Of a stretch of DNA of 39,473 nt, positions 7,248 through 10,808 are shown in pieces. Position numbers and translations under genes: made by a program. The stretch spans positions 1 to 39,473 of the forward strand of contig CAJOGA010000020.1 in assembly GCA_905233855.1 (NCBI GenBank), given 5' to 3'. Position 1 is the first letter of the stretch. Every line of letters begins with the position of its first letter. Source of the DNA: an uncultured Clostridia bacterium (GTDB lineage: Bacteria > Bacillota > Clostridia > UBA1381 > CAJOGA01). The notes below the pieces were generated by a model. That model ran no database searches, was not told the DNA's origin, and saw only the letters and a list, made by a program, of their open reading frames with translations.

Positions 7248-8603
7248 TCAAGCCAATGCGGGTATAAGTGTCAACGCGATGGTGAAATATATAACAAGCG
7301 ACAATGCGTCAACCAACGTGGCAATCAGCGGTGCCGCCATAAGTGCAGGGTCTGCCTTTAACAGCTTGGCAATCATCGGCAGCGTACAGCCCACAATATT
7401 TGCCAGAAGCACAGTGCAAATCATAGCAAGCGAGACAACCAGCCCCACTCTTCCGCTTTCCGGATTGAATAATACTATACGCAGATAGTTAAGCAAAGCA
7501 AGCGGCACAGCCACAATAAAGCTTACTCTGAACTCCTTCCAGATTACGGCAGGAAGGTCTTTCATATTTATTTCGCCGACAGCCATTCCGCGTATAACAA
7601 GAGTGCTGGACTGGCTTCCGGCATTACCGCCGGTATCGGTCAGCATAGGTATAAATGTTACCAAAAGCGGCACAACCGAAAAAGCTTCCTCATAAACACC
7701 CAATATCTTTCCCGTTATAATTCCGCTTATCATGAGTATCAAAAGCCAAAAAATTCTGTTTTTAGCCATTGTAAATATGCCGGTTTTAAAATACGGCTTG
7801 TCGTTCGGCGATATGGTGGACATTTTATGAAAGTCTTCCGTTGCCTCTTTTTGTATAACATCGACAGCATCGTCTATGGTAACGATGCCCACAAGTCTGT
7901 TTTCCGCATCTACTACCGGCAGGGATATAAGATCATATTTATCCATAAGATTGGCAACGTCCTCACGATCCGCAACCGTACTTACCGATATGACGTCTTC
8001 TTCCATCAAATCCTGAATTATCTGATTATCTTTTGCAAGTAAAATACGCTTAACCGTTACAACGCCCAAAAGATGGCGGCTGTCATCGGTTACATAACAG
8101 TTATATATCGTCTCGCTGTCTTCTCCGACACGTCGTATTCTTTTTAAAGCATCGGACACTGTTATGTCTTTACGCAAGCTGGTGAATTCAGCAGTCATAA
8201 TACTGCCGGCAGAATTTTCGGGATATTTTAAAAACTGATTTATGACGTTTCTTGTCTCGGGCGATGAGTTCTTTAAAACTCTCTTAACCAAAGTTGCAGG
8301 CATCTCCTCAAGCATGTCAACCGCATCATCCACCGCAAGCTGTTCAATCAATGTGGATATTTCCTTATCGGTAATCGACTTTATAATATGCTGCTGTACA
8401 TCAGGAGAAAATTCGGCAAACACATTCATTGCCTGGTCTTTTGTTAACAAACGAAACACAAGCAGTTGTTCCTCATCAGGCAGCTCTTCTATAAATGCGG
8501 CAACATCTATGTCGAACATATCCGTCAGTTCGGCACGCAACGCTTTATAATCATGCTGTTGTGCAAGTTCGTTTAATTTTGTTGTATTTATTTGCGCAGA
8601 CAT
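7248..8603 (-). CDS. mgtE: Magnesium transporter MgtE (second copy)
   Basis: MgtE N domain, paired CBS domains, TM domain with PMLTDTGGNAGSQSSTLVIRG signature. Confidence 0.96.
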   Translation of the reverse strand: MSAQINTTKLNELAQQHDYKALRAELTDMFDIDVAAFIEELPDEEQLLVFRLLTKDQAMNVFAEFSPDVQQHIIKSITDKEISTLIEQLAVDDAVDMLEEMPATLVKRVLKNSSPETRNVINQFLKYPENSAGSIMTAEFTSLRKDITVSDALKRIRRVGEDSETIYNCYVTDDSRHLLGVVTVKRILLAKDNQIIQDLMEEDVISVSTVADREDVANLMDKYDLISLPVVDAENRLVGIVTIDDAVDVIQKEATEDFHKMSTISPNDKPYFKTGIFTMAKNRIFWLLILMISGIITGKILGVYEEAFSVVPLLVTFIPMLTDTGGNAGSQSSTLVIRGMAVGEINMKDLPAVIWKEFRVSFIVAVPLALLNYLRIVLFNPESGRVGLVVSLAMICTVLLANIVGCTLPMIAKLLKADPALMAAPLIATLVDALSLVIYFTIALTLIPALA

Positions 8604-8616
8604 TTTTCTCCCCCTC

Positions 8617-9966
8617 TCACATCAACAGTTTTCCGGCGATGGAATAATACAAAACAAGCGTTACGGCATCTACTATTGTTGTTATTAACGGTGCCGCCAT
8701 TATTGCCGGATCTATCTTTAACATTTTGGCAACTATAGGCAAAATACTGCCTATGGTTTTTGCCATTATAATTGCTCCTATCTGTGCCAACGCAACGACA
8801 AGCGGTATAAGTCCCAAATTGCCGTACATTATAAGCAAACGTATATAGTTTGCCGCGGCAAGTATAATACCCACAATAATACTTATCCTGAATTCCTTCC
8901 AGACAACGTAAAAAATGTCCGATACCTTTATCTCACCCAATGCCATACCGCGTATGACCATTGTGCTTGACTGACTTCCGGCATTACCCCCTGTGCCCGT
9001 GAGCATCGGCATAAAGCTTACAAGAACAGGTATTGACGAATACACAGCCTCGTAGCTGCCAAGTATCGCCCCTGTTACCATGCCGCTCAACATAAGACAC
9101 AAAAGCCATACAAACCTGTTTGCAGCAAGCCTGAAAACACTCGTTTTCAGATACGGCTTTTCGCTCGGCGATATTGCCGCCATCTTATGGAAGTCCTCCG
9201 TTGTTTCTTCACGCAATACGTCCAGAGCATCGTCTATGGTGATTATGCCCACAAGATGGTTTTGTGCGTCCACTACCGGCAAGGCAATAAGGTCGTATTT
9301 TGCCAACAACTTTGCCGCATCTTCCCTGTCGTCGGTCGTAACGGTGAATGGCTGTTCGGTTTCCATTATATTTTTTATAAGTTCATTGTCGTTTGCAAGC
9401 AACAGTTCCTTTACCGTTACCTTGCCCTCCAAATGTCTGTCGGCATCTATCACATAACAGGTATAGATCGTCTCTCTGTCTTCGCCTACTTTTCGTATAT
9501 GCTCTATCGCCTCTTTAACCGTCATGTCCTTACTGAGTTTGGTAAACTCCGATGTCATGACGCTGCCGGCTGAATTTTCAGGATAATTCAAAAACTGGTT
9601 TATAAGCGACCGTGTTTCCGGCGATGAGTTCCTCAAAACACGGTTTACCAGCTGTGCGGGCATCTCTTCAATCATATCCACGGCATCGTCCACCCAGAGG
9701 TCGTCTATTATCCTTGACAATTCCGTATCGGTTATGGCTTCCACTATTTTTTGTTGCATGTCGGAATCAAATTCGGCAAATACTTCAGCCTCTGTTTCCT
9801 TGGGCAAAGTTCTGAATGCTATGAGTGCCTGTTCCTGCGGCAACGATTCAATAGCCGACGCAAGGTCGACGCTGTTCATATCGTCAAACACACTGCGTAA
9901 CACCTTATAATTGCGTTCGTTTAAAAGTTCTGTTATATATTCAACATCCTGACGTTGTATTGGCAT
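8617..9966 (-). CDS. mgtE: Magnesium transporter MgtE (first copy)
   Basis: MgtE N/CBS/TM architecture with MLTGTGGNAGSQSSTMVIRG; start chosen at ATG 9966 (MPIQRQDV) because of the GGGAGGAATAAAA RBS; the longer ORF to 10011 reads through the terminator-like leader hairpin. Confidence 0.95.
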   Translation of the reverse strand: MPIQRQDVEYITELLNERNYKVLRSVFDDMNSVDLASAIESLPQEQALIAFRTLPKETEAEVFAEFDSDMQQKIVEAITDTELSRIIDDLWVDDAVDMIEEMPAQLVNRVLRNSSPETRSLINQFLNYPENSAGSVMTSEFTKLSKDMTVKEAIEHIRKVGEDRETIYTCYVIDADRHLEGKVTVKELLLANDNELIKNIMETEQPFTVTTDDREDAAKLLAKYDLIALPVVDAQNHLVGIITIDDALDVLREETTEDFHKMAAISPSEKPYLKTSVFRLAANRFVWLLCLMLSGMVTGAILGSYEAVYSSIPVLVSFMPMLTGTGGNAGSQSSTMVIRGMALGEIKVSDIFYVVWKEFRISIIVGIILAAANYIRLLIMYGNLGLIPLVVALAQIGAIIMAKTIGSILPIVAKMLKIDPAIMAAPLITTIVDAVTLVLYYSIAGKLLM

Positions 9967-9983: not shown

Positions 9984-10047
9984 CAAAATAAAAACCCACG
10001 TCAGCAAACAACAGTTCAGCAAAAAACTGTCAGCCTGCAGCGTAGGT
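9984..10047 (-). terminator. Terminator-like leader hairpin immediately upstream of the mgtE RBS
   Basis: Minus strand ACCTACG...CAG...ACAG-TTTTTTGCTGAA-CTGT...CTG.CGTGGGT followed by TTTTATTTT; lies 5' of GGGAGG and the ATG. Confidence 0.65.
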
Positions 10048-10055
10048 ATCTGATT

Positions 10056-10078
10056 TTTCACACTTATTCTTTGTGAAA
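10056..10078 (-). other. Small hairpin in mgtE leader
   Basis: Minus strand TTTCACA-aagaataag-TGTGAAA, 7-bp perfect stem. Confidence 0.5.
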
Positions 10079-10176
10079 TTTTTTGCCCGCGTGTATATAC
10101 AGTATGCGGCAATTATCGGCAATATATGCAGACAAAGCCGCAACAAATACGCATCACACAAGCATATTTGGACAAA

Positions 10177-10269
10177 TTAAATCATGCCAATACACAGAGG
10201 ATCGGCAAATGTAATTTTGTACAAACAGGGATCAGGTTCTACGCTTTTTCCTTTGGTACTTGTATCCAC
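10177..10269 (-). CDS. Candidate leader peptide upstream of mgtE, VDTSTKGKSVEPDPCLYKITFADPLCIGMI (30 aa, GTG start)
   Basis: Minus-strand AAGGAGG (10284-10278), 8-nt spacing, GTG start at 10269, 30 codons, TAA at 10179-10177; EPDP at residues 11-14 resembles E. coli MgtL (MEPDPTPLPRRR...). Confidence 0.75.
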   Translation of the reverse strand: MDTSTKGKSVEPDPCLYKITFADPLCIGMI

Positions 10270-10314
10270 TTACGTCTCCTCCTTTTTTCACACAATGTAA
10301 ATTTTCCCGTAAAT

Positions 10315-10320: not shown

Positions 10321-10358
10321 TGCAAAATAAACGCCGCAATTGCAATTTTACCAGGAGT

Positions 10359-10386
10359 AAAAATGCTTGCTCGCAAGGGCATTTTT
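10359..10386. terminator. Terminator-like hairpin
   Basis: AAAAATGCttGCtcGCaagGCATTTTT-type stem (AAAAATGC TTGC TCGC AAGG GCATTTTT), A/T runs on both sides. Confidence 0.5.
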
Positions 10387-10397
10387 GCGACGCCGTC

Positions 10398-10478
10398 AAT
10401 TAACGCAGTGCTCGTATGAGCACGAAAGAGCTTTAGCTCTTGGGAATTTTATGGAATAAAATTCCGTATGCGTTAATT
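10398..10478. repeat. Cloverleaf palindrome cluster
   Basis: 10-bp perfect inverted repeat AATTAACGCA/TGCGTTAATT enclosing three perfect hairpins: GTGCTCgtatGAGCAC, AAGAGCTttAGCTCTT, GGAATTTTATggaATAAAATTCC. Confidence 0.75.
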
Positions 10479-10504
10479 ATAATCTTTTTGCATTTCAAAG
10501 TCAA
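10476..10504 (-). promoter_or_regulatory. Consensus sigma-A-type promoter reading toward mgtE
   Basis: Minus strand TTGACT-17 nt-TATAAT. Confidence 0.6.
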
Positions 10505-10571: not shown

Positions 10572-10808
10572 AAGACGAACGGTTTTGATGCAATTATTTT
10601 AATGAAATCGTTCGTTTCACTCACGGTGAAATCCAAACAAGTTTGGATGAGATCAAAGGCTTTGCCTTTGGTGAAATTAAATCCGTCCTCTTTAGCCCGA
10701 CGAAGCCGGATTTCATCACGAAGTGATTTCACCCGCGAAGCGGATTTATTCCGTCTTGAAAAGACGGATTTAACTGAAAAAACGACTTGTCGAAACAAGT
10801 CGTTTTTT
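10572..10808. repeat. Array of about eight short hairpins with GAAAT(C)-type linkers
   Basis: ACGAACG/CGTTCGT; TTTCACtcacgGTGAAA; CCAAACaaGTTTGG; CAAAGGCtttGCCTTTG; AAATCCG/CGGATTT; ATCACgaaGTGAT; CCGCgaaGCGG; CCGTCTTgaaAAGACGG; AAAAAACGACTTGTcgaaACAAGTCGTTTTTT. Confidence 0.8.
10777..10808. terminator. Bidirectional intrinsic terminator at the edge of the hairpin array
   Basis: AAAAAACGACTTGTcgaaACAAGTCGTTTTTT. Confidence 0.8.

Follow-up and report, generated by a model that had tools for sequence, protein, structure and literature searches.

The 39,473-nt stretch of DNA analyzed here, referred to as the window, comes from an uncultured Clostridia bacterium and carries on its minus strand an mgtE gene whose end lies roughly 15 nt or less from the beginning of a second mgtE paralogue; the two genes probably form an operon. 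Upstream of the first mgtE is a leader (Table 1) containing a short open reading frame (ORF) that is preceded by a Shine-Dalgarno (SD) sequence and ends 210 nt before the mgtE ATG. A promoter-like site is found about 200 nt 5' of the leader ORF.

Table 1. Features of the mgtE locus and its leader, all on the minus strand, with positions given in window coordinates.
Feature	Position	Details
Promoter-like site	10476..10504	TTGACT-17-TATAAT; 11/12 consensus positions; consensus match only
Region 1, leader SD/start	10267..10282	5' strand of P1 (MFE): GGAGGA 10282-10277, GUAAGUG 10273-10267
Leader ORF	10177..10269	GTG 10269 to TAA 10177; 30 aa MDTSTKGKSVEPDPCLYKITFADPLCIGMI; RBS AAAGGAGGAG
Region 2, 3' half of leader ORF	10196..10211	3' strand of P1 (MFE): CAUUUGC 10211-10205, UCCUCU 10201-10196
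Region 3, anti-start strand	10184..10194	UGUAUUGGCAU (DNA form TGTATTGGCAT); last leader codons
Long imperfect hairpin	10084..10164	between leader ORF and terminator; contains TGCGGC/GCCGCA; MFE fold
TGCGGC/GCCGCA stem	10142-10137 / 10110-10105	found by direct search; in MFE fold
Small hairpin TTTCACA/TGTGAAA	10056..10078	arms 10078-10072 / 10062-10056; in MFE fold
Terminator-like hairpin and U-tract	9985..10051	hairpin 10051-9990, -27.3 kcal/mol; then TTTTTATTTT to 9985
Compound stem ACCTACG/CGTGGGT	10047-10041 / 10000-9994	in MFE fold
mgtE RBS	9979-9974	GGGAGG, 3' of the T-rich tract
Region 4, mgtE start (codons 1-4)	9956..9966	AUGCCAAUACA (DNA form ATGCCAATACA); partner of region 3 when the full-length RNA is folded
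mgtE	8617..9966	Mg2+ transporter, 449 aa; domains MgtE, MgtE_N, CBS; ATG at 9966
Second mgtE paralogue	7248..8603	58% identical to the first mgtE; domains MgtE, MgtE_N, CBS

Several repeated or structured elements surround the promoter-like site. At the presumed transcript start (10397-10476, minus strand) four near-perfect stems stand in series, with TTAACGCA/TGCGTTAA around three hairpins, in an array that resembles a multi-way junction and is without an Rfam match. A 57-nt stretch with a hairpin, 3' of the promoter-like site (10345-10401, minus strand), has an 89% copy elsewhere in the genome, 5' of a trigger-factor-like gene (L192 2024-2080), and can be read either as a shared 5'-UTR element or as a mobile repeat. 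Matches to Gut-1 RNA below the gathering threshold of 50 bits occur at 10705-10776 (minus strand, 44 bits) and 10600-10682 (plus strand, 34 bits); both matches consist of hairpins in tandem with GTGAAAT spacers, and 10670-10776, with two further genomic copies (on C29 and C6) that are 86-90% identical, looks like a dispersed hairpin repeat.

The leader as a whole folds far more stably than expected by chance (z = -6.5), and the interval 9984-10176 between the leader ORF and mgtE reaches -67.9 kcal/mol, compared with -45.6 ± 4.0 kcal/mol for shuffled sequences (z = -5.6; 0/300), which bears out the structured mgtE leader proposed in the first-pass annotation. The three stems named there, the T-rich tract, and the GGGAGG motif are all located where they had been placed, and the stems are all part of the minimum free energy (MFE) fold. 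The terminator-like hairpin that had been described next to the mgtE ribosome binding site (RBS) is credible as well: in both sequence and predicted fold a stable hairpin lies directly 5' of a U-tract, as in an intrinsic terminator, and only 0.7% of shuffles place a hairpin of -20 kcal/mol or lower before a comparable T-tract. This hairpin was absent from a stock terminator scan and was listed by a custom scan that tolerates bulges. Among related leaders, clear hairpin-plus-U-tract terminators are found in a minority. Termination at 10051-9985 may be used, and may be the regulated step; as the output, sequestration of the mgtE start codon and RBS is no weaker a candidate.

Such sequestration is evident in the predicted fold. 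Region 3, which sits just 5' of the interval, is perfectly complementary over 11 nt to region 4 (P = 0.003), and the resulting 3:4 helix is present in the MFE fold, where it closes the mgtE start in the manner of Salmonella mgtQ; the mgtE SD (GGAGGA, 9978-9973) lies partly within this pairing. The annotation had instead pointed to an octamer, TTGCCGAT, as a possible pairing partner of the RBS. Both copies exist (10208-10201 and 10122-10115), but the match to the RBS region is only 5 bp (CCGAT:ATCGG) and a repeated 8-mer turns up in 63% of shuffled leaders (P = 0.63); we therefore discarded the repeat as a meaningful signal, and the octamer as an alternative RBS partner. More plausibly, the octamer is a look-alike of the mgtE start (TGCCAAT) that competes for region 3: judged by their sequences, the mgtE start AUGCCAAU and the octamers UUGCCGAU are alike and could both pair with the anti-start strand. 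The corresponding 2:3 alternative joins UGCCGAU (10207-10201, inside octamer copy 1) to AUUGGCA of region 3.

A third helix, P1 (1:2), pairs the start of the leader ORF with the 3' half of that same ORF in the MFE fold; its 3' strand, region 2, includes octamer copy 1. In the window the P1 duplex has an energy of -19.6 kcal/mol (z = -1.9, and -1.4 on repeat), short of the class mean of -2.8, and taken alone it is modest.

The upstream regions of 173 mgtE hits were surveyed for SD-preceded ORFs of 12-46 codons starting M/V-[D/E]. Such ORFs are present in 54 of the 173, compared with 3.3 ± 1.8 in shuffles, and the same plan of ORF plus fold recurs in related clostridial mgtE leaders, consistent with the earlier suggestion that the leader ORF is the likely controller. 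For P1 we used a sample of 61 leader ORFs before mgtE, nearly all clostridial; because these leaders were picked, and their families (among them MDTVPGR, MDSSPVRKR, PDGR, MDLGPSH, KPPS, SVPRSS, MDAGSS, SNSD, and KQDIDY) sorted, by eye, all family counts given here are approximate. The AGT codon occurs almost only in frame (family-weighted 26.5, versus 0.5 and 2.8 out of frame; 16/17 families), and the leader ORFs therefore look translated, as the leader ORF in the window presumably is; the spacing of the leader motifs varies by whole codons. In leaders L001-L180, AGT makes up 81 of the 150 serine codons, compared with 13% in mgtE bodies, and CGA 55 of the 107 arginine codons, compared with 6%. 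Strong by sequence count, the CGA preference becomes weak once each family is given equal weight (9/15), and was set aside.

Across the 61 leaders, the P1 duplex has a mean z of -2.80 when the ORF 3' half is paired with its own start and -0.36 when it is paired with the starts of other families, the own start being better than a foreign one in 19/19 families; the cross-family co-variation of this helix is clear, and composition gives no account of it. Six further leaders, found afterwards by searching 391 genomes with a DNA pattern for the MDAGSS N-terminus (a reversed-pattern control found none), each sit immediately 5' of mgtE and carry P1, with z from -2.2 to -4.9. Within the MDTVPGR family covariation is weak, with three pairs changed on both sides, and pairing is kept at 91%, versus 28-49% when the strands are slid. 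One member of this family, L107, has a leader ORF that stops early and retains the P1 3' strand past the stop, which points to a constraint on P1 at the RNA level.

Other parts of the arrangement vary among families. Region 2 has a second partner downstream, nearer mgtE, in 14/17 families, and in 14/19 the spacer upstream of mgtE contains sequence that pairs with the mgtE start region. Pairing of the leader 3' half with the mgtE start was found in only 11/19 families and was rejected as a class-wide trait; the 3:4-type pairing thus belongs to the window and a small number of other leaders. The acidic, proline-rich peptide of the window contains EPDP at codons 11-14 and ADP at codons 22-24, with D2, E11, and D13 as early acidic codons; a search of 95 genomes of the order with this peptide returned, besides the window, weak matches only (E 0.2-0.7), and a pattern of SD, start, and EPDP applied to 391 genomes of the class gave five other matches, the window alone being convincing.

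How translation of the leader could act on these helices was modeled by folding with the ribosome footprint masked, a thermodynamic treatment that ignores cotranscriptional kinetics and ribosome sterics. In the window, opening the mgtE start costs 12 kcal/mol, and then 4-6 kcal/mol with a ribosome at codon 23 or beyond; across families a leader ribosome in an early or a late position leaves the mgtE start more accessible than one in mid-ORF (17/19 each). In nascent RNA the 2:3 hairpin forms with the ribosome at codons 1-5, where it covers the leader start, and in full-length RNA 3:4 beats 2:3 unless the ribosome lies over codon 23 or a later one. In nascent RNA folded as far as the U-tract, P1 is lost and the outer terminator stem is loosened by a ribosome at the leader start, and neither happens with one at EPDP, the terminator hairpin being closed at most ribosome positions. 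In the full-length fold 3:4 also stays in place with the ribosome at EPDP, so that in this equilibrium model mere loss of the ribosome at that point would keep mgtE shut, contrary to the need of a low-Mg2+-induced importer, unless the second DP, kinetics, or transcription-level control matters. A ribosome pausing at D23-P24 would, hypothetically, lie over both region 2 and region 3 and make mgtE accessible.

Given what the computations show, namely the class of ORFs, helix P1, the 11-nt complement of the mgtE start, and the stability of the hairpin, we judge it reasonably probable that the interval is the downstream half of a leader-peptide-controlled, ribosome-gated mRNA leader for mgtE that works like mgtQ and mgtL. 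The 30-aa ORF would be translated by a ribosome whose position, or whose loss on acidic and proline codons, would determine which of the helices 1:2, 3:4, or 2:3 forms. Without a ribosome, P1 and 3:4 would form, the terminator-like hairpin would stand, and mgtE would be closed; a ribosome lying over regions 2 and 3, or keeping region 1 open, would loosen that closure. For the direction of the switch, and for the ribosome position that would turn mgtE on, these folds give a tentative picture. By analogy with the enterobacterial systems, the signal would probably be low intracellular Mg2+ acting on ribosome stability.

The strength of the terminator-like hairpin would also suit classical transcription attenuation, a rival that we regard as unlikely though worth weighing, in which leader translation would choose between an antiterminator, such as AGCGUAG (10245-10239) paired with CUACGCU (10045-10039), and the terminator at 10051-9985, and the RBS pairing would be incidental. 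Consistent with it, nascent RNA with the ribosome at codons 1-3 loses P1, with the outer terminator stem falling to 0.26-0.62 and the antiterminator at 0.38-0.74, and hairpin-plus-U-tracts also lie between ORF and mgtE in the SNSD-type leaders L174, L177, and L179 and the Lachnospiraceae leaders L056 and L058. However, the 7-nt antiterminator match, which is the longest perfect complement of the terminator within the leader ORF, is expected by chance (P = 0.15), the terminator re-forms at most other ribosome positions, and most leader families lack a clear terminator.

The same stability in nearly all modeled states could be taken to mean that the hairpin acts as an invariable terminator with some read-through, which keeps mgtE expression low, with the ORF having no regulatory role; we find such a constitutive arrangement hard to credit, since ORF and P1 are enriched and co-vary upstream of mgtE across many families. 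It is similarly improbable, in our estimation, that the leader is a riboswitch that binds an ion or metabolite directly and whose conserved sequence reads as an ORF by accident. Its strong fold, and the P1 strand kept at the RNA level despite the shortened ORF of L107, would fit a riboswitch, but the window leader has no Rfam match, comparison of the families revealed no conserved unpaired core, and AGT and other motifs hold the reading frame while their spacing changes by whole codons.

The M-box, or ykoK leader (RF00380), is a cis-regulator of Firmicutes mgtE genes that acts with an intrinsic terminator. It shares with the window the link to mgtE and the intrinsic type of terminator, but an Rfam scan of the window leader gave no match, M-box included, and an M-box or other Rfam riboswitch in the window was ruled out on the lack of a covariance-model match. 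The same scan of 40 related loci returned one M-box (in L032), as well as a cobalamin riboswitch and a tRNA, neither of them placed in the leader. In L032, which encodes the nearest MgtE homologue, the M-box (1979-2169) is followed by an SD-preceded short ORF, MEGNPGDR..., from 2250, possibly a riboswitch and a leader peptide in series. The mgtE motif SRC-65-1, described as a riboswitch candidate, is a structured RNA that precedes mgtE and holds the SD and AUG within a stem; in the portion of the source devoted to it, it is reported only in Thioalkalivibrio and an ORF is not mentioned (PMC11109978). The likeness to the window, a structured RNA before mgtE, is one of description only. Short ORFs also lie upstream of gammaproteobacterial mgtE genes (L087, L088, L090, L076, and L081; MDIPSSPACGLD.., MESSSCTLTD.., MSTPPPETKPRH), and these might be related to the Thioalkalivibrio motif.

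The clostridial leaders seem to form a hitherto undescribed class, translated as well as folded, that precedes mgtE in many Clostridia; the open-licence full-text literature yielded no mgtE leader-peptide class from this group. More tentatively, and with rather less confidence, we suggest that Clostridia widely possess, in parallel to the M-box, an as yet undescribed Mg2+ sensor for mgtE that is based on the ribosome and in which the leader's own start is masked by the 3' half of its ORF and decoding, without ion binding by RNA, reports intracellular Mg2+ through a fast-evolving M-Asp peptide with conserved Ser (AGU) and Pro/Arg codons.

Mg2+ sensing through ribosome stability on acidic and proline-containing leader peptides is already known from the enterobacterial mgtL and mgtQ. 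In the mgtA leader of E. coli, where MgtL controls a Rho-dependent terminator, ribosomes drop off under low Mg2+ at the EPDP that forms residues 2-5 of MgtL (PMC11282234). The window has the identical EPDP in a short SD-preceded leader ORF before an Mg2+ transporter gene, but at codons 11-14, still near the N-terminus and later than in MgtL, with an intrinsic-type terminator and with mgtE, not mgtA, downstream. In Salmonella, mgtQ is an 8-aa ORF between mgtC and mgtB whose Asp2 and Glu5 destabilize the ribosome and so free the mgtB RBS, which is closed by 1:2/3:4 and freed by 2:3 (PMC8092293). The window resembles it in having an SD-preceded short ORF with Asp2 and a further acidic codon before an Mg2+ transporter gene, and, in the predicted folds, an ORF-region helix (1:2) and a transporter start closed by 3:4. 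Unlike the intra-operon mgtQ of mgtB, the class is formed by 5' leaders of mgtE in another phylum with peptides of about 20-45 aa, and the window differs further in that 3:4 outweighs 2:3 thermodynamically and a terminator-like hairpin is added. Because gene, phylum, and terminator type differ, we propose by analogy that the window leader works like mgtQ and mgtL, and claim membership in neither. If true, this would be a second widespread RNA-level control of mgtE beside the M-box; the same logic, once even with EPDP, would stand before an unrelated transporter gene across Clostridia, making it a general strategy, and the mgtE leaders would offer a simple, testable system, with dozens of natural variants, for nascent-peptide ribosome destabilization in Gram-positive bacteria.
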